Shown: positions 6,785-62,065 of the stretch, piece after piece
Position numbering within the stretch: position 1 is the first letter of the stretch
How the letters are laid out: every line of letters begins with the position of its first letter
Assembly: GCF_008831285.2 (NCBI RefSeq)
Contig: NC_045147.1
Span: 21,840,981-21,904,980 of the forward strand
DNA from: Nymphaea colorata
Lineage: Eukaryota > Streptophyta > Magnoliopsida > Nymphaeales > Nymphaeaceae
DNA length: 64,000 nt
Direction of reading: 5' to 3'
Position numbers and translations under genes: made by a program
Notes under the pieces: generated by a model
What the model was told of the DNA's origin: nothing
Database searches by the model: none
The model's input: only the letters and a program-made list of their open reading frames with translations

Positions 6785-8145
6785 CGTATTCCGGCAGGCG
6801 GCAACTTGCTCAGGCCGCTTGTGGTTGCCCATCTAGGTTGCCTCCTTTTCTCGGTCTGGTGGATATCATATCATCTGCTGCAGTGTAACAGAAGCAACGC
6901 AGCGGACCTTCTTCCTCCTGAAAAAATCAGACCATGTTCACTTCCTTTTATTGTTCCTCTTGGCTGCCCATTTCTCTCGTGGGGAAGGGATTATTGTCGT
7001 AATTGGTGGTCTGTTGTAGTTGAACATCCAGTTCCCTGTTTGGTGACTTTGGTTCTCCTTTCGGGGTTCAGAAGGCACGGATTCTGTGCTTCGGAATTGT
7101 ATCATTGTCCTCCTTCTGAACTTATCCTGCTTGCGCAGAGAAATGTCCCCTTTCACAAAAGTGGTACCTTTCTGTGGATCTGCTTCATTTTATTTTTCTG
7201 GGATTCTTCTCTTAGCTTTTAGATTGGAGAAGAAGAATGTTGAATTTGGTATTCTCTGGTTTGTGAATGTGGTTTCCTTTTTCCTGTTAGATGATCTTGT
7301 ATCCTTTTTTTTTTTTTTTCAAACGGAAATGTCAGTTCTCATAGAAGTGATAACTTTCCTGTGGATCTGCCTCATTTTATTTTACTGGGTTCTTCCCTCA
7401 AACTCTCTGTGATTTTTTTTTCCCGCCTGTGTAGCTCTGAGGAAGAAGACACAAAATTTTGATGTTGGTATTCTTTTGATTGTGAATATGATTTCTTTTT
7501 TGTGCCATATGGTATAGGATCTTTTTCTTTTATGTGGATCAGTTAAAGCCGCCGAGTGACTTATTTTTCTTTTATACCGTTCTATTTTACGGTTATTTTA
7601 TTAAAGGCTTTATTTTTTTGACTCCTTTTTTGTACTTGAAAATGAGAATGATTTGATTTTGTATTTTCGGTTTTAGCCGGCTTTTTTATGTGTCAGGGTA
7701 CGCATTGGATTCTTATTTGGTACAAATTGCATTGTTGGTGTCATCTACTTTTTCCGAGTTTTCTGAAAGGCTTGTTCGGTGACTGTCTTAACAGGGGCTA
7801 GGCATAGTTGCAGGGCTGGGTGGCCCAGGGTTTTAACCAGCAACCATTGGATACATGCCACACTGTTGATTCAGTTGCATACCTCACCAGAGTTCAAAAG
7901 CCAGAAGAGCAAATTTTTTACGAGTAGAAAGAAAAGGGTTGGTACTTCAGGGGTCTAGGTTCATACGGTTTTCTGTATTCTTTTCGAACGGTATGTTACT
8001 GTTTCCCTTTTACTTAATTCCTTCTCTTTTTTCAGTTCTGTGATAGATTTTGTTGGTCTCTGGTGTGACCCCTAACTGGAGAAGATCGTTCAGTAATGGT
8101 GGATTTGTTCTGGGTATAGACGCACTTTCCGTTAAGCTACTTTCC
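6785..8145 (+). other. Probable 5' leader/intron region of KIN-14T
   Basis: T-rich sequence before the kinesin coding region. I find no family-like coding exon, so it is probably 5' UTR and intron(s). It contains an imperfect tandem duplication (about 7140-7310 and 7326-7525). Open frames here lack family features and mostly lack an ATG. Confidence 0.45.
7140..7525. repeat. Imperfect tandem duplication, about 190-220 bp
   Basis: Blocks recur in order: GAAATGTC at 7140 and 7326, CTGTGGATCTGC near 7172 and 7359, and TTGGTATTC near 7246 and 7464. Spacing grows from 186 to about 218 bp because of insertions in the second unit. Divergence indicates an old event. Confidence 0.85.
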
Positions 8146-11115
8146 ATGGACGAATCATCTGGCTGTGTCATTGGATCCACAGAGGCATTGGGAGAGCCGG
8201 CAGAAATGCTTGACAGGCCACAGTCTCTTGATACGCTTCCTGCGGAAGCAGTATTTACAAATGTAGCTTTGGTTCCTGAGTATGAGAGGAAGGAACTGGA
8301 AGAAACTATCTCAAAGCTTGAAGGCAAGTTTGTAAGGAGTTCAATGCATAAAACCTCAATCTGTGAACTCCTCTGTCGTGTTCATAAACCCCAGTCTCTG
8401 AATCTCTCTGTCGTGTTCATACTATCTTATTGTGAACGGTTTCCGTAGGAGAGGCAGAGGATTTGAGATCCCAACTACGGCATTTGGACGCGAAGCGGCG
8501 GGATGCATTAAGCAGGTTATTAGACCTGAAAGGTGGTGAATTTCGAAGTCTGCCTTCAACAACGTGTGAGATGATGGACAGTCTTTCTCAGGCAGTGTTT
8601 ACATTTTCCTCTGTTTTCAGGCAGCATCCGGGTTTTCTGTCGCATTCGTCCTTTTCTGCAAGCGGAGAAGAGAAGCAAGCCTGCACTGATTTCTCCTCGA
8701 TCGGAGAAGATTTGGGTTCAAGGCATAAAGAAGAAAGAGTTCGTCTTTGATAGAGTTTTCTCTCATCAGGCATCACAAGGTAAACTGCTACGAAACCTTT
8801 AAGATTCTTCAATACATTGCCCTGATGTTCTAACTGAAAATTGATAGAAAGATCTGTGTAATACACTTATAGAGGATGTTTTCGTTGAGGTTGAGCCGAT
8901 TCTCAAATCTGCACTCGATGGTCACAACGTCTGCATATTTGCCTATGGACAGACCGGAACTGGCAAGACATTCACAATGGTTAGAAGCATGCCAGTACGC
9001 TTCCTGTTAATTGATTCTCTTGCTTTTGTCTGTCAACTTTTGAGCTAATGCAGTTAGATCTGAGGGATTCTTCAGGAAGGAACATCGGATTGTCCTGGCA
9101 TCGTTCCACGGGCTATCAAAACACTTCTTCATCAAGCTTCGATTGATAAGGCAGCGGCCTTCAAGTTTTCCTTAAGCATGGTGGAGGTTTACATGGGAAA
9201 CCTGAAGGATCTATTAGGTCACAAGCCGTCCACAAGAATGGTGGACTCCTCTTGTTTCTCTAGAAGGTAAAACATCTGATCTCTGACATCAGTTATTGCA
9301 CTATTTTAAATCTTTGGCGCTTTTAGTTTAACTTTACTGGCTATATAGCAGTCTCAACATGCAAACAGATGCCCATGGAGCTGTAGAAATCGATGGTCTC
9401 ACTGAATTAACGGTAACCGACTTTGCACAAGCAAATAAGAATTATGTTATGGGAAGGAAGGCTAGATCTACATGTTGGACCAATGCCAATGAGGCATCCA
9501 GTAGGTCTCACTGGTAAACTTCCTTATTCAGCGGCCTGTTTGTTTCTAAAAGTTTCATGTTACCGTGTTAAAGCTAAGATTTCATCTAATTTGGAGACAT
9601 TTGTGATTGGAACTTTCTGGTGTGTATATGTAGCTTAACTAGACTAACCATTATCCGCCATGAGGGCAAGAAGGCAATATCAAGCAAATTGTGGATGGTT
9701 GATCTTGGAGGAAGTGAACGGCTACTCAAAACAAAAGCCACTGGACAAACTCTTGATGAAGGACGAGCAATAAATTTGTCCCTCTCAGCTCTTGGTGATG
9801 TTATTTGTGCACTAAGACGAAAGCGCAATCATGTTCCATACAGGTAAATTTCTTTGGCGTATTTCTCTCTCATTTGTTGTGATTATAGTCTTCAATTTTA
9901 TACTTGAAATTTTTTCGTTAATATTACAGTTTATTTACATGTATATGATGTTTTTCACTATTTTTTTTTACCATATGCAGGAACAGCAAGCTGACTCAAG
10001 TACTTAAAGATTCACTTGGTATTTTAGTGGGGTATCATTAGCCTGTTTTTTGCTTTCACGAGTTCACCATTGTCACGAAAGTGTTTTGGATGTAGGACTG
10101 GATTCAAAGGCTCTCATGGTCATTCATATAAGCCCAAAGGAAGATGACATCAATGAGACCATATGTTCTATGAATTTTGGGCAGAGGGCAAGGAGCATAG
10201 AGTGCCACAAGGAATGCCCTGAGGTGACTATAGGGATAACTTTTCTTTGATCACCATTTTTTCTGTTGTAGGAAGATCAAATAACTCCTCTTGCTTTATT
10301 CTGCCATTATATAACTTATGGTCCTTAGACAAATAGGTTTTCATTTCTCTCAGGAGTTAAAAATTTTGAGGCAAAAGAAGATTGCAGAACTTGATCAGGA
10401 GATGAGAAGCGCAGAGAAGGATTGCCAAGTGACAAGAGACCATATCCAAAGCATTGAAAGCAAACTGGAAGAAAAGAAGAGGATATTGTCACTGTCAAAT
10501 GCTAATGAAGATCAAACAGGGTCTCCAACGTGTCCCCTATCCGTTCCTAGAGAACTTTTTGAGAGTCCTAAAGCTTCTGCTAAATCCGTAACTAGAAATA
10601 GTTCTGTTTCTGTCCCTCGATTTATGTTATCCACTGCGTGCAGCAGACAGAGGCAGCTTGCTGAAAATGAAGCCAAAGTAGCAAAAGCTAACAGATCAGG
10701 AAGAAAATATGTCAGTGATGTAGATTTTCAGCTATCAGGATCTCGCATTCTTTTCCAATCAAATTCTATTATCAAGGCAAGCCCAAGTCATGGACTATCA
10801 CCAAGGACTAATGCCAAGAAGCTTCATATTGAAGAATTGAGCTCTATGCACCCTGATACTCCAGTTCATGACAACAGTGGCTCAAAGTTTTCAAAGACAC
10901 CCCAAAATAATAGACTATCTGCCTCCCCACTAGTTTCAAACAGGCGGAATTTGTCTGATCCCATGTTTCGTAAAAGATTGTCTGATAGGTCAAATTCTTG
11001 CGACATGACCAGTCACCCGTCCAAAGGCACAAAACTAATTCGTTGTTCAATGCCCAATACCTTGAAGTTAATTCATGATTCTGATTACTACTCCTCAGTA
11101 AACTGTCACAGCTAA
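8146..11115 (+). CDS. KIN-14T: Kinesin-14 motor protein, KIN-14T type
   Basis: Microtubule motor of the kinesin-14 family, probable orthologue of Arabidopsis At1g55550 (assignment from memory). Exons: 8146-8323, 8449-8532, 8621-8779, 8873-8979, 9076-9266, 9352-9513, 9634-9843, 9981-10018, 10096-10223, 10354-11115, giving 672 aa with all phases consistent. The neck ([20 protein letters not shown]) leads into the motor at residue 88 ([11 protein letters not shown]). P-loop GQTGTGKT is near residues 165-172, switch I NEASSRSH near 286-293 and switch II DLGGSE at 317-322 (Gly-Gly where most kinesins have Ala-Gly, as in KIN-14T). The motor ends with [13 protein letters not shown] and [11 protein letters not shown], followed by a coiled coil (about 420-470) and a Ser-rich tail. 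The first intron appears to use a GC donor. The start at 8146 is the first in-frame ATG; an upstream coding exon is possible. Confidence 0.9.
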
Positions 11116-16390: not shown

Positions 16391-19042
16391 ATGGCGCCCA
16401 AAGGGGGGCTCTTCTCACTCCCCCTTCTGCTACTCGGAGGGTTTGCTCTCCTTGTTTTCTTCTTCTTCCTCCCTTCTCTCTTCAGATCTTCTTACCTCTG
16501 CTACTCGGAGTCGCGGAGCGGAGCTACCGGAAGTAGTGGTGTTGGAGGGAAGGAGGGATCTGAGATCCCTTCCCGAACATCGCCATCATCGTCCTCAAAT
16601 CCGGTGTCCGCTTCGGCAGATGACATTTCCTGGTTGAGGGACCAATTGAGGGCGAATGAGCTTCGGGATCCGCCCACTACGGCGGAGGGCTGGCACATGC
16701 TCCGGAAAGGGATCAACCCTCGCACCAGAGCTCAGCAGCTCGAGGATCTGCGGAAGTATGTTGCTTCTTGAATCTATTTCCTCTTGTGGTCCTGTACTTT
16801 TGTTAATTTTTTGTCATTGTGCGTCTATATAGTTGCGTTTTCCTATCTGGCCCTGCTTTATCTTGTACTCCACGAAATTTTAGGGTATTTGGCGATTGAC
16901 AGTTTTGCATTTTCATCTCGTTAGTACGAAACATTTCCTTGCTTCTTGTTCGGTTATTTTTCTTTATTTGGAATTTCTCTTGTTTAATGTGGCATTTTCA
17001 CCTTTTTGCAGTTTATAAGTTCCTTTGCTTGTATGTTGAAGTTCAGGAGAATTGTGGCTCTTAAGGTCAAATCTCGTTTTAGGAATGTCGAAACCTTTCT
17101 TAGGCCTCTGAAATGAACAACTGACAATGTGTGTGGAATAAGAAACTCGGTTTTGATCAACAGCAGCAGACCGTCCTGTACAACATAAATTCAGCCACCA
17201 TTTGAACAAGTATTGGAAACAGAGCATTTGAAAATTTTAGTTGGTTCTTGTAGCCCTCCAGTGCTTGCCTATCCTGCTAGGGCCAAGGTTTCTGAAAAGT
17301 AGATAGAATTAGTTTTCTCGTGTACGAGAGGACTAGAGCATCATTTTTTGTACGAGAGAACTAGACCTTGGGTTTCGATCTGTTCTTAATGCGTCCTTCT
17401 ATCTTGTCAATGGATCTTTCTCATTAGTGTGTCAAAATATTCGAGTGATGAAGTTGCCTCTGAGATTTTCTAAATACTGACTGATTACATCATCAAGCTC
17501 GTAAACAATCCATTGTGACAGTCTTTGGGTCCTGACATTCTTGACGTTTCCCTTTTTTCTATTTTGATAGTCGATGACTCCATACCAATGTTGTCTCGTC
17601 TTCTTTCGCGTTTTTCAGTTTTAGGAACCACAAAAGCGTTAGATTGTAGCTTTAAATAAAAGGTCCCACGCTGGGGATCTTTTGTATGTCAAGAATTTGT
17701 CCATGGGCGGGAGATGAGTGTTTCAGGATCTATCTTTTTTTCGTAGGCTTTTAGGATCTATCTTTTGAATAAAGGTTGCTTGAATTTTACTTTCCCTAAT
17801 CTTCCTCTGGAAAGGCTGTCAATAGGCCCATTTTTGTAGCGGGTAGCCCATGGTTAATCTGGATAGGAGATGATTTTTTTTTTTTTCAAGCAGCTTGTCG
17901 ACCATTGTCCAGAGGAGAGAACAAATTCTTCGTCCAGAAAGCTGTCAGTTTCAGTGAGCCTGGACATCGGTCTTAATGAATTGCATAGAATTTATGTTAT
18001 GCAGTTTGTTGTTTCCTGCTTGATCCTTTATTATCTGCTAAATTTGAATGCAGTTACAGGATGAACCCAGGTGAGACTTTAGTGTTGTGGGTACGGTACA
18101 CCTAAACTAAATGGTACTTCTTGGCGATGAATGAGATTCAGTTTTGCCGTTTTCAATGGAAATAGGTCGGTCGGATACGCATCCAGTAGATTTCTACTTT
18201 GTTAGATTTGATTAACCCCAATTGCCATTAACGCATTAGACATTAATTTGTGCCTTATCTTATGTTGGTTTGTGTTAATTTTGTTTAATTTTTAGAAAGG
18301 AGGCACTTGTTGGTTGATCTAGACGAACCGTTGCATTCGTTCATCTTAAAATTCTTTCGGTGTTAAAGGTTTCCTAACTTTCCTTGACAGGTTCAAAGGC
18401 ATCTCACACTACGAGGATGGGGAGAATAATCATACCGAATTGCCCTGCCCTGGAGAATTACTGGTGGAAGAGCACCATAGCAACTATGGCGAGCCTTGGG
18501 CCGGAGGGCGTGATGTGTTTGAATTTTTAGCTAAGTCGGTTGATCTATTACCTGATTTTCAAGTGCTGGAGATTGGATGTGGCACTCTCCGGGTGGGTCT
18601 GCATTTCATCCGATACCTGGATGCAGCCCATTTCCATTGCCTGGAAAGAGATGAACTCTCTCTCATGGCTGCTTTCAGATACGAGCTTCCTTCACAGGGT
18701 CTTCTGCACAAGCGTCCCTTGATCGTGAAAGGCGATGACATGGACTTCACCAAATTCGGGGACGATGTCGCCTACGACCTGATGTATGCGAGTGCTGTCT
18801 TCCTTCACATTCCAGACGCCCTTGTGTGGGTCGGCCTGGAAAGGCTTGCTTCCAGACTAAAGCCTTCCAAGGGCCGGCTTTTTGTTTCTCACAATATAAA
18901 ATTTTGCACGCGATTACATGGGGATGAGTGTTCGAAGCGGCTCTCAAATATTGGCCTGGAGTACTTGGGGAAGCGTACCCATGATAGCCTTCTTTTCAAT
19001 CACTACGAAATATGGTTCGAGTTCAGGCGGCCAAGGACTTGA
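16391..19042 (+). CDS. Membrane-anchored SAM-dependent methyltransferase
   Basis: Class I (Rossmann-fold) S-adenosylmethionine-dependent methyltransferase of unknown substrate. Exons 16391-16755 and 18391-19042 (phase 2, intron about 1.6 kb) give 338 aa. Residues 7-30 are a single strongly hydrophobic segment near the N-terminus followed by a Ser/Gly-rich linker, which suggests a type II signal anchor in the secretory system. The SAM-binding motif I is VLEIGCGTLRVG (residues 180-191), with an acidic post-I motif (CLERDE) and later DLMYASAVFLHIPD. The C-terminus ends HYEIWFEFRRPRT. It resembles plant proteins annotated only as SAM-dependent methyltransferase superfamily. Substrate and compartment are inference. 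Confidence 0.88.
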
Positions 19043-21278: not shown

Positions 21279-24200
21279 TTAGTTGAAGCTATAAGGAGAG
21301 TTCTTTGGGGGACCAATGTAAATTGAATCCCAGATTGAATGCCACATCACAGACACTGAACTGGGTGTCCTCACAGAAAGAATAGTACGAGTAGCTTTCA
21401 ACATAAGCTGGACTCTCAAGATTCTAAACATGTTTTACTATTTTTTAGCAATAAAGGTACCAGCTGAACTACTGTAAACAAGTTTCAAATTTTAATGCAA
21501 AACACAATTCCTCTGAAGGGGCAAAGTTAAAGTTTCAACTGTACAATTATAGAAAAGCTTGTATTCATTTCCAACATCAAACGAACAAGCAACATTTTAA
21601 TCTCATCATCACTAGAAAATTATGCATGATTACAAATGTGTGTCCAGCAAACTGGGATTCGGCTGGAGGTAAATTAGGAGTGACCTGCCATGGATTTTCT
21701 GTCGTTTCTGTTGTACCACTGATTCCTAATGTATTTAGTTCCCAGAGCAAACCGTTCATGCCCACAATAAACATACCCATACCAGATTCGTAACCTTCTC
21801 TGTACAGTTTTCCACATTTGTATTTGGTCACCTTAAATGCATCACAAAAAATTCTTCCTTGTGGATTCCATTCCATTTCAAACTTCAACAAATCTACATC
21901 TCCAACGTTTGTGTTTTATGCATGCTATGCATCACATGCAATCATGATTTAATAGCCCAAATGAAGACATATCTACCAACAAGGGCAACTAATGGTGTTC
22001 AGAAACATCTTGGTAGTGAAGGATCTAAGAGGTATTTCCATGAAACCGGAAGGATTGTACTATATGTAATTTGCAGTGCAATGATCGGCTCTCCAAAGAA
22101 GAAACTGCTTTATTGAACGCAAGAATATACCTGAAATATTGGTCATGGCACCAGCACCCTTCTGAGCAGCAAGTGCCCGCAACTTGTCTCCAGTAGCTAA
22201 CAGAAGCAAGCTTTTCATATGCTGCTTTTGTTCTTTAGGGCTAGATGTCTTCGCTAAGGCATCCTCGAATGCAAGGAGGTCATGCATCGTTATGCATGGA
22301 AGGGACAATAAAACCTGTAATAAGAAGAAAAGCACGCAAAAAAGAGAAGGGATTTATAAGCCTCCTTATAAACTCGTCCACCAAAAAAAAAAGTTTACTT
22401 GAGATGAGATAAGAAGACCCGGAAGATGGACTATGAGTCAACAAACTGCAGTACCTCCTTACATGCAGCGTCCTTATTAGACAGGGAGGTGAAAATATCA
22501 CAACAGAGCCCCACAAGATCTGCACCGATGATTGCATTGGAGTCTAGCATCAAACCTCTAATGATTGCAGAAAACATCTCCTTTGCAACAAATGCCCTGA
22601 GTCCAGGATTATTTGTTGAAACAGCTAGTAGAATGACAGCCCCACAGAATGATAACAACTTAGCCACTGCCTCGCCATCAGGCCAACAAAGAATTTCCAA
22701 ACTAAGTTGAAGAACAGGAAAAGTAGGACCATTCCGTTTAAGTAGAAAGCTGCAAACAAATTCAATTACTCCATCATCGATATGAATATTTAAAAAAAAA
22801 AACAGAAAAACATGAGCGCATTGAAAGCAGAATGGTGTTAGTGACGCATATCACGTCCACAAAGAGATAGCCAAAGAATAACTAAAATCATTTAGCATAC
22901 CACATTAGAGAATTGGAGGCCAAACCTTCCAGGCCTTCCACATTTGATTCCATACGGTTAGCATGTCCAACTTGTTCTAATAGAGACAAACAGGCATTTA
23001 AACCAGGAGATGCTATAACTGATAGCAAGGAGCATATCTCTCGTGTCAATGATCGAAGCAGCTGTTCTTCCATTACTTCTACCTGCAAATCCGATGAAGA
23101 AAAATTGCCACCAATATCTGGAATTTTTGCTCTTCCTTCATTGATTAGATTGGTCCATGAATAAGTAAGGACCTGATAACAATGGCTAAACAGCGGGAGC
23201 AGAAATTTTGTCAGCCATGAATCCCATAACTCTGTAGGGCAAGATTTCACCAGAGGAGTCAGAACAGAGTGGGTGAGTTGGCGAAGATGCCAAAAATTCA
23301 TTGATCTTATATTTTCCATGAGAGCTAAAGCAACAGAACTGCTGTCCAAACATTTAAAGAAGCAGTCCCCAATGGTAGTTGACAGGCCTAAGACATTATA
23401 CCTGAAACCAATTGATGTAATGAGATAACATTAACAGCAGTCTCATCTGGAACAAGGAAATGGGAATGTCATAGATGACATGAAAAATAAAAAGGGGGTG
23501 GGATTATAAAGGCATGCGCCAAAAGCTGAAAAATTAACAAAAAAAAAATCAACAGAACATAAAGCTATTGAGCAAAAAGGCTTGAAGTGACCCACACACA
23601 AACACGACAAAACAACCATATATATATAAAAAGCAACACAGAGAGGGGATGGATGATCATGGGAAGGATTTATGCATGATTTCCAAAAGTAGACCTTGTT
23701 GCTCCTAGACGTATAAAACGACATAACCAAGGGTAGAATGTTTAACATTATTGCTATCTATTAGATTCAATAGCGATTAATTCTCTCCTTATATGATTCA
23801 AGTTCAACTTTGCTATACATGTTAGTAACTGATGCCTTGAAAAATGAAAACCTAGGATCTGACTCTAAGACAATAATGTCTACATTTTCCATGTTCTAAT
23901 TTATCAATAGATACCAATATAACTTCTATTCATTAATGGTTCTCTACACTGCCTCCAACCAGGAAAATAAACCTCACTATTTTCAAATTCCTTTTCAATT
24001 ACTACTTTCCAGGGAGATGCTGTAGAATGCAAATGAGATCTTCTCGGCAAGTATAAAAGAGATTGTTGGAGAAATTTTCAAATTTAGGCAAATAACAAGA
24101 GAAGCTGATAATTAAATAAACACCAAAAACAAAAAATCAGTGCATCACAATCTTTTTCTTCAGTTGAAAAAGTGCATGCGGCCAGGAATATGGTATATTC

Positions 24201-31378: not shown

Positions 31379-34300
31379 GAGAGTGAGAGAGAGTTACTAT
31401 GCATTTGTTCTACTTCTACATTCATATTTTTCTAGTCTGTTGAAAGCTACATATATGATATATGTATCTATTATACAGGCAATGTTACGCGGTTTTTATC
31501 TAACATATATGATGTTATGCCATGCATTCATATGATTTTGACACTTCAATACTACTTACTCTGCTACAGTATGCTTAAGTTAATCTCAATAATGTGTAGT
31601 TTTTCATTTTTATATTCCTAATTTATTTTGAATTGGCAGGCACCAGCCTAGGTCTTTTATAAGGTCAAGCACTACTCCTGCTAAGAGTTTTTTATTACAA
31701 ATTTGGCATGCCTAGAACCTGTGAGGCATTTATATTATGGCAGCACCATAGGTGCATCCTAAACCAAAAGAAGCCTGTTTCATATGCACATGGCTCCTTA
31801 CGAAGACGACCACTTTTATAAACATCTTCACATTACTTCTATATCATGAACAAGGGAAACATAACATACAATGAAGCTGAGGACGTGAAATAATTGGAAC
31901 AAAACATTAACAATTTGAGAAACATATATTAACATAAAGTTTTTGAGATACTATTTGTGTGTAAGTGGAGAAATTGAAAACAACGGGCTACCTCTTGGGC
32001 CAGGTGGTTTTTTAATCTTGCATTGCTAAAAAACCATGCCAAAAGATACCTTCCTGATGGCAATGGATTGGCCACAGATTTTAACAATGGAATGGACCTT
32101 TTACAATAGTTTTTAGCAACACAAAAAGAAAATGATCATCCGGTCACAAAGATAGCCAGATGTTTTCTATTTATATATATACATATATGGAAAATACAAA
32201 TCAGCCAACTGCCAGAAATTGCTAGATGGTTAAATATTTAAATCCACCGCTAAAAAGCAACATAAACTGTCATTAAAACCAGTAATGTATGTATCGTACA
32301 ATACGTACCATATTGTTTGCAATTTACGGTACAATACACCCTCCGTATCGTAAATGGGGGGGTGTATCAGTCCTTTTTCGACTTTTCTTTAAAATGTCCG
32401 CCTTCTTCATTTCTAACGTAGGGATTGTGCGCCCAAGGAGGAAGATCATCAATTTTCATCATGAAAACATCGATTTTCACCATGAAATCATCGATTAAAT
32501 GGTCAATTTGTGTGTGGGTGGCTGATTCTTGTTTGGAGGAAAGGCGTTTTCTTGATTTCTTTTCTGTAAGGTATGAAACTCTGTTTTTACCATATATTTA
32601 TATATTTTTACCGTAGATTGAAAGATTTCAATTGTTTTTCATTAAGTTTACCGTAGGTTTTCGTTCTTTTTTTTTTTGTGAAAATATGGATCCTACATGG
32701 CAATGGTGGGAAAGAGTGAAGGACAATGACCGGTTAAAACTCAAATGTAGCTTTTGTGAGAATCCATTTTTAGGAGGGATTATTAGAATGAAACACCATT
32801 TGGCAGGGACCACCAAAGATGTAGCTCCATATGTTGGAAAACCAAACAAACCTTTACCTCCATTTGTGCGTCAGCAGTGTTTAGATATGTTTCATGTTTT
32901 ACATCAAAGAAAGATACAAAAACATATGGAAGAGGTAGATGTAGGCTATAATGAGCCTTGGGAAGATGAAGAAGAAGAAGAAACTTATGAAAATGTTGAA
33001 TATGATGAATATGATAGCAGACTAAGAACAGATGTGGATAGCTCTAGAGGTAGAGGGAAAGGAATCATGTATAAAAGAGGTCGATCTGGCCCATCGGGAA
33101 GGAAGAGAAGAGGCACACTAGATATTAGGGTCAGGCGTGGTCATCGACCACCTGGTGGTAGAGTTCCTACTGGTAGGTCTAGTGTTGGTTTTATTAAGAA
33201 CTTTTTTCCTTCATATACTAGCCCAGGTGGTTAGTCGCAGATTCGTGCTACTATGACATCTAAAGATATGCTACATCAGGCACAACTGTCGGTATGTAAA
33301 TGGCTTTATGATGCATATATTCCTTTTAATGCAACTAATTCCTTTCAGTTCCAAGTCATGGCAGATGCAATTGCATCTATAGGCCTCATATTCAAAATGT
33401 CATCATACCATCAAGTGAGGGACAAATTTCTTCAACCTACGGTGAAAGAAGTATCAGAACATTGCGCTCAGTTGAAATTATGCTGGAATGAAACAGGTTA
33501 CTCCATTATGTCAGATGGATGGACTGATACACAGTCAAGAACACTTGTGAATTTTCTTGTTTATTACCTTAAAGGTACAATGTTCTTAAAATTTCTTGAC
33601 TTATCTCATGTTCCTAAGACTGCTGAGATTTTGTTCAATGTTTTTGATAATGTCATACAAGAAGTTGGACCTACAAACAATGTACAATTTATTACAGATA
33701 ATGCTGAAAATTATAGAGTTGCAGGGGATGTTATTTCAAAAGTATAGAACATTTTATTGGAGTCCATGTGCCACTCATTGTGTTAATCTAATGCTTAAAG
33801 ATCTTAGTGACAAGCATGATATGAAATCAATTGTTGACCAATGCCAAGAGATTACAAAATTTATCTACAATCATGCATATGTATTGAGTTTGATGAGAAA
33901 ATTTAGAAAATGAGTGAATTAATACGACCTACACAAACTAGATTTGCCACAAATGTATTGACGGTGCATAGTATAGTGAAACAAAGAACTCCGTTGAGAC
34001 AGATGTTCGCTAGTGAAGAATGGGCTACATATCCACATGCTCATAAAAGAAATTCTTCTTTAGTTGTGGATATTATATTTAGTAACGAATTTTGGGAATC
34101 ATGTGTGAAGCTATTGAAGGTCTGTGTTTCATTAGTTAAAGTTCTCAGGTTAGCTGACAGCAATGATAGGTCTTCCATAGGGTACTTATATGAGGCTATG
34201 GATAAAGAAAAAGAGGCAATTCGAGACAACTTGAAAGGAAAGAAAAATTTATACATACCCATATGGAAGATTATAGATAAAAGGTGGACTGAACAACTTC

Positions 34301-43308: not shown

Positions 43309-46300
43309 ATGGAGGCCACCGGAATTATCTCAAATGTTTCACGGAACATTACGAGTTGTCCGGCAGTCGAATCGGCTGAGTGCGATCAAAGGCGGTTGAG
43401 GCCACGGCCATCCATTTTTAGCCTAGAGAGAGGCGGTGGGCTCAAACGTGGAGCTGCCCGTCTTGTGCATGCAAGCAATTGCATCGCCGGTGGAGCGGCG
43501 GGGATGCAGACGATGGGAGAGGTGAACCTCAGAATCCCGGCCGATTCCCGTGGCCGTTTTGGCTCCTATGGAGGCCAGTTTGTACCGGAAACCTTAATAA
43601 CTCCTTTAAGAAAGCTGGAGGATGCTTTCAGTAAGTTGATTGAGGATTCAAGTTTCCAGGTTCGTTCTCTCATCCTTTGTTTTTCCAGATTTTGATCGGA
43701 GATTATAAATCCAGTTTATTTAAACTCATGAACCTTTTTGAACTCGAAAGTCTAACTCAGATGGATCGAGCTCTTGTCCGCAGCTGCCATCTTCTTCTTA
43801 ATTTCCCTTAAGGCATGCACCAGTGACAAGCCAAGGCACTCGAAAAAGATGGTAGCTTTCTAGTTCTTAGAAGGAAATAATCAAGAACCGCCAAATCCAT
43901 GAAATTTTTTGGATTGTCATATGTTTTGTGAATGGTATACTCTAGGGTAGTCGAGGAGAATCTACATCCACTAATTTTTAATAAAAACATTCAAAGTTTA
44001 CGAACTTTTTTTGGTTGGATCAAGCACATACAGGCACTGATTTCTCAGTATAAAACTACTAAAATTTCAGTAGTAGAAAACCAAAATTTTTTATGGAAAT
44101 AACTTAAACTAGAATACGTTTATGCAAAATTAGTAACCGTAAACATGTAAAACTTTTGCTAATTAATATATTTTTTGTATAAGTTTATATTGAATGGTCT
44201 TTATATACACAGAATCTATTACTATTGATATCCATAGTGTTAATTGACATCTGTCAGTAGCAATTGTCGGCATGAAAAAGACATTTACTGTAGTTACTTT
44301 TACTGGAAAATTCCATACCACCTGTTCGGCTCGGATAGATTTAGATTTGGATATGGACATCCCAACAAACCCAGAGAATCAAGCAAAGAAGGATGTTCCT
44401 TATATTGAGCTCCTTCTTTTGCAGATCACTGTGAGAAAGCTCAGTAACAAAGGCTAGTGGTATTTGTGGCCACCACTACTACCAATCAAATCAATCTACA
44501 AGGTTCTAATATTACACATACATAGAGTGACAACCTTTTAAATAAATGGAATCTTAGCTATATATTGTATTACAGGCCTTCAAGCAATGGTTTATTAACA
44601 TACGACTGTTGATGCTTGATGTAGATGGAGCTGCAGGTACTGCTAAGAGACTATGCTGGTCGCGAATCGCCTTTATACTATGCCGAGAAGTTATCGAACT
44701 ACTACAAGGAAGTTGGAGCTGGAGTGGAGATATACTTGAAGAGGGAAGATTTGATCCACACTGGATCACATAAGATTAACAATGCAATTGGTCAGGCATT
44801 GGCCGCGAAGAAGCTTGGGTATGAGCACGCCGTGGCTGCAACCGGCGCAGGGCAGCATGGAGTCGCCGCGGCGGCGGCATGTGCCAGGATGGGCTTGAGC
44901 TGCACCGTTTTCATGGGCACTAGGGACATGGAACGGCAGCCTCACAACCTCCTTCAGATGAGGACCCTTGGTGCTGAGGTAGATTAGTCTTCTCTGTGCT
45001 TCTTCAGAAACCTTTTCAACCAGTTCGAAAATAAATTATAACTTCCAAAGTGAAATTTTATTTATTGTTTTGAAAACGTATATACTTTTATGTATGTTCG
45101 TTTTATTGATCGAAAAATTGATATCAGTGCACTAATAAGGACCTATTATTGTAACACCCTATCATGAAACAGTTTAGCCTCGTGTTATTGAATATTTTTA
45201 AAATTCTTCAGAAAATTGATAAGGAGGTTGACTAAATGATTGAAGTGTCCTGGTTCCAAACTTTTTGAGTTACATAAACTACAACTACTGCTAGGAGCGG
45301 GTTGTGGGAGTGATTGGGGAAACTTGAATGTAGCTACTTAAATTTTCACAAACATCTGAAAGAAAAACCGTTTAATTTGTATTTTTGTTTTCTTCTTATA
45401 GGTAAGATCTGTAGAGGGCAACTTCAAAGATGCAGCATCACAAGCAATCAGGGAGTGGGTGTCAAACCTAGACACCAGCTTCCACCTCTCAGGGTCACTC
45501 GTTGGTCCGCACCCATGCCCATCAATGGTGGGGGAGTTTCAGTCAGTCATCGGGAAGGAGGTGAGGAAGCAAGCAACAGAGAGATGGGGAGCAGGGAAGC
45601 TGCCAGATGTTGTTCTGGCCTGTGTGGGCAGTGGGTCGAATGCAATGGGAATCTTTAGCGAGTTCTTGGGAGATCAGAAGGTGAGACTCATAGGTGTGGA
45701 GGCAGCAGGCTTGGGGTTGGGAAGTGGGAGGCACTCTGCAACTCTCGCCAGAGGGGAGGTTGGCGTCTTCCATGGCTCCATGAGCTACCTTCTCCAAGAT
45801 GACTATGGCCAAATGACTGATCCTCACTCCATTGGTGTTGGGTAAGTTGATATTAATTGTTTTTTTTTGCCTTTGGTTCAAGGAATGCAAATGGGTAGCG
45901 CCCATCTTCTTTGAATACTATTAATATTGATCACTTGATCGTCTACGATGTCGCTGTTTCAGAATTGTTTGTGTTGCTGACCTGCCACTGAATTCAGTAT
46001 AGATCTAACATTGTCTCCGAAGTTGATCATATAAATGTTGTTTGATTATGTTGCCGTTTCAGAATTGTTTGGATTCCTGACCCGCCACTAAACTCCATAC
46101 AGATAAAAAATAGTTATCTCTAAGTACTTCACGATATAATTGATTGTTGATAACTGTGTTAGGTTGGAGTATCCGGGAGTCGGGCCGCAGCTCAGTTTCC
46201 TCAAGGATATAGGACGCGTCGAGTATTACACCGTCACTGATGCAGAGGCAGTGAATGGTAGGACAATCTCTCTCTCTCTCTCTCATTTTAGATGATTAAG

Positions 46301-46507
46301 ATTAAGTTCCTGATAAGTGCTCTCTTGCCTGCAGCATTCAAGAGACTGTGTGCATTGGAAGGCATAATTCCTGCATTGGAGGCATCACATGCTCTGGCCT
46401 TCCTCGACAAGCTCTGCCCTCAGCTGCCTCATGGCTCAAGGGTGGTGGTCAACATCAGTGGGAGGGGCGACAAGGATGCAGAGATGGTCTTACACCATAT
46501 ACAGTGA
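43309..46507 (+). CDS. Tryptophan synthase beta-like protein, altered active site
   Basis: PLP-dependent fold type II enzyme related to plastid tryptophan synthase beta (TrpB1 group), which joins indole and L-serine. Exons 43309-43659, 44625-44978, 45402-45841, 46163-46257 and 46335-46507 give 470 aa, the length of Arabidopsis TSB1. The first 65 residues or so look like a plastid transit peptide. [15 protein letters not shown] opens the core. The PLP lysine is K167 ([10 protein letters not shown]). The carboxylate loop TGAGQH (190-195) and SGRGDKD are kept. Changes: the catalytic Glu before that loop (Salmonella E109) is Ala189 (GCA, 44838-44840); the serine-binding Asp (D305) is Glu384 (GAG, 46167-46169); the phosphate loop reads GSGSNA, not GGGSNA; and HSGTATLKDA is shortened to VEGNFKDA. 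The frame is otherwise intact, so the protein is probably made but may catalyse another reaction or none. Confidence 0.93.
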
Positions 46508-47714
46508 TCACCATCAAGGATTCTCAAAGAAGAAGGAGAAGAATAAGTTCCAATGGAATTCTGCGGGGAGATGGCTCCCTTCCTTTTCAAAAGGAATGAT
46601 CTATACAAGAGAATTTGAAAAAATAAAATTTCAAAAACAGGATGCTTAGCATCATAGAGTGGATTACGACGTAGGGAAACTATACAGTCCCCTTATATCA
46701 AAAAGCAAGAAGCAATACTTGCCTAACCACGGCCAAATTCATACCTATTATCAGTTTCTCTGTATTGGCATAGTAATCCTACCCACTTCTATTGTAACCT
46801 CTTTATTATCAACCCGCCAACCATACTTCATGTAAGGCGAAGAGTAAGTTATCTCATTTTTATGTCACATTCACACTAAAAAAAAAAACTTGTGGTGGCG
46901 TAATTTTTAAATTGAATGCATTAAAATGTATATTGTTAAGAACTGATGTGTAATCACATCTTCTTTTTATTAATGTTCTGAAGTGTAACAATGATGGTGA
47001 AAACTACTTATTGCATAATGAACACCAAGCAATCTCCCTTCCCACTGATAATTTTATTGTATCTTAAATGTTCATTGAGTCCAACCCTTCATGTGTATCA
47101 TACAATAATCCAACCTTTTACACTTTTCATGTGTATGTTGCTTAAAATTTTTGAATTGGGAACAGAGCCTTGATATTTGGATGAAGGGAAAGAAAATGGT
47201 TCTGAACGATATAAAAGGAAAGAAAAAATATTGGAGAAAAGAGGAAAAGAGGAAAGAAAGAAGAAATTGTTATAAAAGTTTATTTGACTAGAAAGAACAA
47301 AAGATCAAATATAATATTTTTTTAACTATATAAAGCAAAAAAGGCCATGAACGGGTGGAATAAGACAAAAGGTCTTAACATTTTATGCTATAATAAAGTT
47401 GGTTCGATTTTATCACCTAAGTAGCCCATAAAGTTGTGTTTGTTTCATCAACCTGTGGTGATCTTAAATCTTAGGATTTTAGATCCATAAATTTAAGATC
47501 AAAACACCCCTATCTCATTTTAAATTCATGCTCTTTAACATGTACCATGGTTTTAGTTCATGCTAATGAGAATCTCTCAAAACACACATTTTTTTATGCG
47601 GCTTTGGATAATCTAAGACTATAAAATGCAACATAACTGTTTTCTGCTGGAAAAAAAAGGATGCCCTTGTTATTCGTGGTAATAATTTGGAAATAGTGTT
47701 TGATGAGTTTGACA
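46508..47714. other. Intergenic region downstream of TSB-like gene
   Basis: 3' UTR and AT-rich spacer. Contains a MITE relative (47430-47640). No gene. Confidence 0.55.
47430..47640. mobile_element. Diverged MITE related to 20931-21116
   Basis: Begins GTTGTGTTTGTTTCATC, like the intact element's GTTGTGTTTGTTTCACC, and shares the internal TTTAGATCCAT-type motif. The right end (AAAATGCAACATAAC) is degraded. Confidence 0.65.
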
Positions 47715-59089: not shown

Positions 59090-62065
59090 ATGGAGGTTTC
59101 GGTGATCGGAAGCGCGCAGTTTCCCGCCGGGAGAAAGAACTCGGCACTTTTGAAGTCGGATCTCGCCGGATGTTGCAGAGAATTGGCGCCTTCCAGGAGG
59201 GACTTGAGTTCAATCGGGTTCGGTTCCGCGGGGGCCGGGGGAAGGCGGAGGAGGGTGGCTGGAGTCTCTCTGGTGACGGCCACCAGGGCAGAGATGGCCG
59301 TCGTTGAGAAGGCAGCCGGCAAGCGTTCGCACGATAAGAAGGTAAAAAATTTCGATCTTGGTGTCTGTTTCTCTTTTCATGTTAGCTAGTCCGTTTCTCT
59401 TTTCATGTTAGCTTAAATCTAGTTGCTATGTGAGGGGTTTGCTTCAGGATTGCCCCCTTTGTTGCTCCTTGTAGTCAGAGGAGTGTCTTTATAAAACGCT
59501 ATAGATTTTTTTCCTCCTGACTTTTTTTTCGTAGAACTTTCCCCCTGTTCTGGTGATCAGGAATAGACTCCAGATTTTTTCTTTATTTTTGCCAAGAAGA
59601 TTTATCCTTGCTCTGTTTCTTCTTTGCAGCGTGGTAAAATTTTGTGTTTTTGTTGGGTAGAAGGCCCGTTACTTTCCGCCAAATTCGGGATATGTCGATA
59701 ATGACTTGTCTTTGAAATGACGAGATTGTCCGTCCACCTTCACTATCCCCCTTCGACGCGTGAGACTTGTCGTCTCGCTTACTCGGAGGCAATGAAGTTC
59801 AAATGTTTCTTTTTTTTCCCTCTTTGTTTTTTTCCTCCCACGATTTTCTGTTTTTCATTTTCCTCTTAGAAAATTCTAATGGTCGACAGTGAAGATCCTT
59901 CTTCATGTAGTATGGCTTTGTTATCCTTGATATTTGTTTTATGCCCTGAGCTAATCGATATTTTTGGGAACAAGGTAATAAGAAATTTTAACTGATACTT
60001 ACTCCTGAAATGAATAAAATCTCACAGTGATTATATACGTGAGGTTAGGCTTCCTATGTTTCGTAAGAGGCCAAAGTGGTCTTCTAAGACTTTAATGGAA
60101 TCCATTCGGGATGTTTACAACTAGTATTTGTTTGGGTCTACTGGCTTTGGTGGGTAGTTTTTCTTACGAAGTAGCAACTTGGGTAGTTGTTTATTGGTGG
60201 GATAATTAATTGTTGTGGTGCAAGCGCCTCTACAGATGTTTGTTTTCGCTTCCATCTGTCAGTTCCTTTTTTCTTCTCTGTGTTTCTGCAAGCGTTTGAA
60301 GGAAAAACTTAGATATGAACCCTCAGAATCCAACTATCGGTAGCCAATAGAGGAGTAAATTTTGCAATAAAATGATGCTAGTTAACTCGTAAATTTCAAA
60401 CTGATCAGCTGAAGAGTCTGGCTTTGAAGGTTTAATAACGCGAAACCGATTCAAGTGTCAACTTGTTTGATTTGGGTTGAAGTAAATATGTTTCCTTCAG
60501 TTCATGGAGACTTGAAAGTAAAAACTAGTTGGAATTCAATTCCTACCATTTAACACGGCCCTAACTCTTCTGAACGTTGTCACGCAGAGTGGTCGAACTC
60601 CGTTTTACGTAGCACTTCCTCTTGATACAGTCTCGCCCGACAACAACTTGAACCATATGAAGGCCGTCTCCGCCGGATTGAAAGCTTTGAAGCTGCTTGG
60701 TGTTACGGGTGTGAGCGTCCCAGTGTGGTGGGGCATCGTAGGGAATGAATCTGAGGGAAAATTCAACTGGTCTGCATATCAATCTCTTGCTGAAATGATC
60801 CGTGATTCCGGGCTTAAGCTCCGGTTTTCTCTCTGTCTCCATGGTAGACCCAACATCTCGCTTCCTTCGTGGGTGGTTAAGATCGGAGAAAGCGAACCTG
60901 ATATTTTCTTCAGGGACCGCGCCGGAAAACGGTACATGCACTGCTTGTCGTTGGCAGTTGATGAGCTTCCGGTACTTGCAGGGAAGTCTCCGATACAAGT
61001 CTATGGAGAATATCTTTCTGAATTCAAGTCGTCGTTCTCGAGCCTTTTAGGCACCACAATCACGGTAAACATGATCTGCAATATTGGATGAAGAACAGTC
61101 TCTCTTATTTGGGTTCGACTGTTTCTGTCGTCAATGGCTGTCCTTTTTTTTTTTGGTCTGAAATTCGAATTTTCTAACAGGATATCTCAGTGAGCCTTGG
61201 CCCCGATGGTGAGCTTAGGTACCCCTCATTCCCGGAAAATCGACGCGGCAAGATTCAGGGGGTCGGAGAGTTTCAATGTTATGACAAACACATGCTTTCC
61301 AGCCTGAAGCAACACGCTGAAAGTTCAGGCAATACTCTTTGGGGTCAATCCGGACCTCATGATGCGCCTAACTACAACCACTGGCCACACACTAACAACT
61401 TCTTCAAGGACTCCGGCGGTTCCTGGGAGACACCATATGGTGATTTCTTCCTCAGCTGGTATTCAGGCCAGCTGATTGACCACGGCGATCGCATCCTCTC
61501 TCTCGCGTCACAGGTTTTCGGCGATAGCGCAGTCACCATCTCCGGCAAAGTCCCGCTGGTGCACAGTTGGTACAAGACTCGGTCACATTCTGCTGAGCTG
61601 ACCGCAGGATTCTACAATGCTGACAGAAGAAACGGCTATACCGCCATTGCCAGAATGTTTGCCGCAAATTCAGCTACACTAGTGCTGCCAGGGATGGACC
61701 TCTCTGATGCTCATCAACCATCTGAAGCGCTATCAAGCCCGGAGTCCGTAATCTCGCAAATAAGAGCGGCTTGCTTCGAGCATGGAGTGTCATTATCAGG
61801 GGAAAACACATCAGTTTCCGGTATACCAGACAATTTCAGTAGGATTAAAGAGAACCTTAAGAATGACCAGTGGAGCTTAGATACATTCAACTACTGCAGA
61901 ATGGGTGCATACTTCTTCTCACCGGAACATTGGCCAAAGTTCACAGAGTTCTTCCGGGGGTTGGAGTTGCCTGAAAAAGATATTGATGACCTCCCAGACA
62001 ACGAGCAGAAGCTCTCCTTCGTTGGGGCTGCTCAGTCAGAGAAGACATTGCTGGTGCCAGCATGA
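59090..62065 (+). CDS. BAM9: Beta-amylase-like protein BAM9 (plastid pseudoenzyme)
   Basis: Glycoside hydrolase family 14 homologue. BAM9 of Arabidopsis is a plastid protein without amylase activity that influences leaf starch breakdown. Exons 59090-59341, 60588-61064 and 61181-62065 (all phase 0) give 537 aa, about the length of Arabidopsis BAM9, and the N-terminus MEVSVIG is shared. Residues 1-75 or so look like a transit peptide. TPFYVALPLDTVSPDNN opens the barrel. The acid-type Glu is kept (GPDGELRYPS, E254), but the second catalytic Glu of soybean beta-amylase (E380) aligns with Asp416 in LPGMDLSDAHQ. The flexible-loop GGNVGD motif is absent, replaced by SLCLHGRPNISLPSW. These are family features of BAM9, not damage. 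Confidence 0.95.
59375..59425. repeat. Short tandem repeat in BAM9 intron 1
   Basis: GTTTCTCTTTTCATGTTAGC occurs twice 26 bp apart, a small local duplication. Confidence 0.9.

Follow-up and report, generated by a model that had tools for sequence, protein, structure and literature searches.

In Nymphaea colorata we identified a paralogue of the tryptophan synthase beta protein (TrpB; TSB in plants), NcTSBL, that probably encodes a water-lily TSB-like pseudoenzyme hijacking the tryptophan synthase alpha protein (TSA) to make indole, by analogy with eudicots; common descent with the eudicot TSB-like proteins is a separate question. The gene lies at positions 43309-46510 of a 64-kb stretch of contig C10 (C10:21840981-21904980, hereafter the window) in an assembly of 407.8 Mb and 783 contigs. 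By its diagnostic residues, NcTSBL is a member of the TSB-like kind in a lineage for which the available papers report no TSB-like. In this analysis we observed the loss of the catalytic Glu, the replacement of an active-site Asp by Glu, the retention of an Arg partner and of the pyridoxal phosphate (PLP) site, constraint on the protein, and the presence of both TSA and TSB in the genome. Plants use free indole in floral scent, as a volatile in defence and as a precursor, and the indole route of core eudicots was explained in 2025 by TSB-like proteins (PMC12727527). That a water-lily gene has both swaps would place the origin of TSB-like nearer the root of flowering plants, or else mean that the pseudoenzyme switch evolved twice through identical changes at two residues.

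The five exons of NcTSBL splice into a single open frame (470 aa) that exceeds in length all others among 24 enumerated in-frame splice combinations, and the splice junctions agree with those of the canonical TSB gene of the same genome (NcTSB, 475 aa). The spliced model bears out several claims of an earlier sequence-only reading, namely that the five exons stay in frame, that the PLP lysine and SGRGDKD are intact (K167 and S455 are both present), and that codons 189 and 384 read GCA (Ala) and GAG (Glu) at the positions listed in Table 1. The interval given in that reading, 44625-46257, covers exons 2-4 and omits exons 1 and 5; as to its statement that the length equals that of TSB1, the canonical protein of this genome has 475 aa. 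The TrpB homology starts at residues 77-84, and the N-terminal extension of about 76 residues that precedes it is a possible plastid transit peptide.

Table 1. Exons and key codons of NcTSBL (window positions)
Feature	Position	Strand	Content
Exon 1	43309..43659	+	~76-residue N-terminal extension and start of the TrpB fold; open frame, GT donor
Exon 2	44625..44978	+	GSHKINNA with PLP lysine K167; AATGAGQHG with A189; R221
Codon 189, GCA (Ala)	44838..44840	+	catalytic-Glu site (Salmonella E109, AsTSB E190)
Exon 3	45402..45841	+	K244; altered loop VGSGSNAMG (S312)
Exon 4	46163..46257	+	GLEYPGVGP with E384
Codon 384, GAG (Glu)	46167..46169	+	Asp site (Salmonella D305, AsTSB D386)
Exon 5	46335..46510	+	SGRGDKD; coding to 46507, stop TGA 46508-46510

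Alignment to solved TrpB chains places A189 and E384 at the AETGAGQHG and GLDYPG sites, which are positions E109 and D305 in the Salmonella numbering of the sequence-only reading. For comparison we used 40 prokaryotic TrpB rows, comprising one scan match (L016), nine rows picked from 30 listed plasmid-borne ones, and the top 30 matches by score from a search of 60 genomes (59 with a match) with a trpB model; because 30 rows were chosen by score and nine by hand, this sample is biased towards orthodox TrpB. All 40 rows and NcTSB have Glu at the first site and Asp at the second, and NcTSBL lacks the E109 and D305 pair of catalytic TrpB1/TSB, carrying Ala and Glu instead. The PLP lysine and the arginine corresponding to R221 are likewise present in 40 of 40 rows, and NcTSBL retains both. 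Altogether, 86 columns are invariant across NcTSB and the prokaryotic rows, and NcTSBL differs at ten of them, one being a gap (A177, A189, L226, the gap near 240, F243, E253, H263, S312, V381 and E384). It retains K244, which by count corresponds to the Salmonella lysine that touches the alpha subunit. Despite the Ala and Glu at the catalytic sites, NcTSBL scores 525.8 with TIGR00263 (cut-off 392.45), and it is not of the TrpB2 type (154 bits with TIGR01415, cut-off 518.85). A sequencing error at codons 189 and 384 was considered and is unlikely, because other invariant sites also differ from TSB and the frame is kept open.

The TSB-like proteins described by Florean et al. 2025 (PMC12727527) are dead TSB paralogues that activate TSA, with release of free indole. 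In the AsTSB numbering of that paper (E190, R222, D386), Glu190 is almost always replaced by Ala (by Ser or Pro in Solanaceae), Asp386, the residue governing TSB activation, is universally replaced by Glu, and position 222 is Arg or Lys. TSB-like proteins from five species were shown to activate TSA in vitro; AsTSB-like co-purifies with AsTSA, produces no tryptophan, and shifted in activity when the two residues were mutated (PMC12727527). All three residues named by this model of TSA activation are present in NcTSBL as A189, E384 and R221, the last being the positively charged partner at 222. At E190, D386 and 222 the gene has the same residues (Ala, Glu and Arg, respectively) as the TSB-like proteins of core eudicots (AsTSB-like, LgTSB-like and those of Arabidopsis, poplar and Nicotiana), and like them it derives from a plant TSB and stands beside canonical TSB and TSA genes (PMC12727527). 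Its nucleotide identity to its own TSB is 62.5% over 391 codons, as compared with an average of 56% for the TSB-like genes in that paper. NcTSBL differs from them in belonging to a water lily, a plant beyond the taxonomic range given in that paper.

According to the text of the same paper, every core eudicot examined has TSB-like, but monocots and basal eudicots have none; its main text makes no mention of Amborella, Nymphaea or any magnoliid, and its supplements may hold such rows (PMC12727527). No account of a water-lily TSB-like turned up in our literature searches, one of which paired tryptophan synthase with Nymphaea, within the parts of the publications available to them. A further likeness, drawn from its published description, is to tea CsTSB2, a TSB homologue that is inactive alone and is reported to make indole only together with CsTSA (PMC7242085). 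The same product proposed for NcTSBL, free indole, is made by the IGL/BX1 indole-3-glycerol phosphate (IGP) lyases of grasses and basal eudicots (PMC12727527); these, however, are stand-alone enzymes derived from TSA, whereas NcTSBL is a proposed activator derived from TSB.

A search of the genome with PF00291 gave 27 exon-level matches, most of which we judged to be to other PLP enzymes. The NcTSBL protein itself matches three loci: its own gene, one canonical TSB, and a weak TrpB2-like match on contig C8. The check for a second, canonical TSB, suggested with the sequence-only reading, therefore has a positive answer at 34.5 Mb of contig C1, where NcTSB (C1:34496684-34502401) retains both the Glu (E192) and the Asp (D388) within ETGAGQHG and LDYPG. 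The two proteins have the same fold and PLP lysine, with 262 of 460 aligned residues identical, and the genes have four of four intron positions and phases in common; NcTSBL is therefore a DNA duplicate and not a retrocopy. They differ in that NcTSBL has Ala and Glu in place of E192 and D388, together with its other changes at sites invariant in the 40 prokaryotic TrpBs.

There is a single clear TSA gene, on C1, with nine exons that encode 314 aa including an N-terminal extension. Its intron 5 has a GC-AG splice pair in the gene model (L015 4113-5079), and visual inspection of the translations 3' of the gene (L015 ~8134-8450, C1:17.569 Mb) hints at an incomplete tandem duplicate of the exon-7 region whose frame is disturbed. 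For a second IGP lyase, a PF00290 search at E up to 10 gave only the exons of the C1 TSA, though the full TSA protein also matched contig C5 weakly, in two pieces with internal stops (10451166-10451892, minus strand; 43 and 45% identity; E 0.0063 and 0.15). These pieces may come from a copy that has decayed or from a lyase that has diverged.

Over 391 codons, NcTSBL and NcTSB differ with a synonymous proportion (pS) of 0.875, which is saturated, and a nonsynonymous proportion (pN) of 0.22; 88 of 115 fourfold sites differ. Amino acids of NcTSBL change about five times faster than those of canonical TSB (end branch of 0.58 versus 0.054 + 0.066 from the common fork in the 13-row tree), as would be expected of a decaying duplicate. 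However, the frame and splice sites are intact at a saturated synonymous distance and pN lies far below pS, and since the amino acids are constrained while the synonymous sites are saturated, we regard decay as very improbable. The sequence-only reading had favoured a new or regulatory function for the paralogue over decay, a view that the canonical TSB, the open frame, the splice sites and the amino-acid constraint support; the role itself is assigned by analogy. By the same eudicot analogy, a more specific role than in that reading can be named, namely TSA activation with indole release.

Under this proposal, and as the eudicot work suggests, NcTSBL would act as a plastid protein that takes the place of TSB as the partner bound to TSA. 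E384 would hold R221 and so lock the active conformation in which TSA cleaves IGP, and without a Glu at position 189 the indole would not be joined to serine and would leave as free indole, which could serve scent, signalling or defence. A dead subunit bound to TSA might also act as a brake, reducing the flux to tryptophan while setting free no meaningful amount of indole, since TSB and TSB-like compete for TSA both in vitro and in leaves (PMC12727527). In the tested species, however, the outcome of TSB-like is indole release (PMC12727527), and a pure brake seems to us quite unlikely.

The intact PLP lysine, TGAGQHG loop and SGRGDKD of NcTSBL would also suit an active enzyme that joins the serine-derived intermediate to a nucleophile other than indole. 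Bacterial TrpBs mutated at the catalytic Glu use phenols (PMC12727527), and one of the solved chains in our alignment, PDB 8egy, is named as an engineered tyrosine synthase. Yet AsTSB-like, with the same residue, gave no tyrosine from phenol (PMC12727527), and the loop changes G312S and A381V of NcTSBL were seen in none of the 40 prokaryotic rows. Such an activity is therefore unlikely, and TSA activation with indole release remains the preferred role.

Several observations weigh against that role. Introducing E190A and D386E into AsTSB brought no gain of indole release (PMC12727527), and the two residues alone are therefore no proof of NcTSBL function. The 2 kb upstream of NcTSBL contain no CACGTG G-box and only two G-box-like sites (CACGTT/AACGTG), with two CACGTG found upstream of canonical NcTSB; in tea, the G-boxes of the CsTSB2 promoter are needed for activation by CsMYC2a (PMC7242085). 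The available text of the N. colorata genome paper does not list indole among the classes of floral volatiles (PMC7015852). Finally, the TSA-type pieces on C5 may mark a second lyase.

With regard to age, TSB and TSB-like seem to have parted before the Nymphaealean genome duplication, because the synonymous distance exceeds the duplication's peak of synonymous divergence (KS ~0.9; PMC7015852), although KS of a single gene varies. Comparison of the 64-kb window with 49 kb around NcTSB in translated frames (E up to 1e-4) revealed only TSB homologues, with some matches in different frames or on the reverse strand, plus a single 34-residue piece inside a TSB intron. An origin of NcTSBL by the genome duplication was rejected on both grounds, the synonymous distance past the KS 0.9 peak and the lack of a neighbouring-gene match.

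We built trees with 13 and with 43 rows, in which the plant rows were NcTSB, NcTSBL and a provisional Arabidopsis TSB1 sequence (AtTSB1); one scan of genome contigs and two of viral contigs gave no recognisable plant row. NcTSB, NcTSBL and the provisional AtTSB1 form one clade (support 100/100 with 13 rows and 100/99 with 43), within which the best trees split NcTSBL off before NcTSB and AtTSB1 (93/89 and 100/93, respectively). When NcTSB and NcTSBL were constrained together, the approximately unbiased test did not reject the grouping with 13 rows (p-AU 0.070) and rejected it marginally with 43 (p-AU 0.043). At sites that differ between NcTSB and the provisional AtTSB1, NcTSBL agrees with NcTSB at 12, with AtTSB1 at 8 and with neither at 27; among the polarised Nc-derived sites of the larger alignment, it shares one with NcTSB, matches AtTSB1 at one and neither at two. 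The trees weakly suggest that the split predates the divergence of water lilies and Arabidopsis, which we treat only as a lead because long-branch attraction pulls the same way and the polarised sites tie.

We give an even chance to a history in which TSB-like did not originate with core eudicots but is an early angiosperm pseudoenzyme. It would have separated from TSB ahead of the water-lily divergence, served to release indole in the first lineages of flowering plants, and later disappeared from monocots and basal eudicots when IGL/BX1 lyases took over. Alternatively, NcTSBL could be a TSA activator that arose from an independent water-lily duplication of TSB and acquired the same two substitutions, an origin compatible with the mechanism proposed above. 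Since TSB-like is not found in monocots and basal eudicots, according to the text of PMC12727527, a single old origin needs several losses; moreover, one base change suffices for each swap, and the grouping of NcTSB with NcTSBL is not rejected by the smaller data set and only marginally by the larger. On the other hand, the synonymous sites are saturated past the Nymphaealean peak, and the best trees place the split before NcTSB and AtTSB1, a result weakened by the long NcTSBL branch and the provisional AtTSB1. The polarised sites, at one each, favour neither origin, and we hold convergence to be possible but somewhat doubtful.

Elsewhere in the window, two long frames at 60522-62062 (plus strand) belong to a GH14 beta-amylase-like gene (PF01373). 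Against solved beta-amylases, its GELRYPS site is kept and the Glu of the CIEMRD site reads Asp (GMDLSD). If these sites hold the two catalytic residues, this gene may encode another non-catalytic regulator, resembling BAM9/BAM4. The window also contains an exon of an exportin-5 family gene (22891-23430, minus strand; PF19273), presumably HASTY-type, a DUF659 frame (33235-33744, plus strand) that we take to be of the hAT-transposase type, and a frame with a methyltransferase domain (18350-19039, plus strand; PF08242).

In the assembly as a whole, plastid genes lie on contig C783 (159,842 bp), where rpl22 and infA are open, and the rps2 matches on C782 (617,195 bp) share one open frame. Many short contigs (e.g. 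C70, C168 and C669) and some chromosomes contain plastid-type genes, either whole or broken, with 35 rbcL-family and 49 rps2-family matches genome-wide; this assembly therefore commonly contains inserts of plastid DNA or plastid contigs left unmerged.
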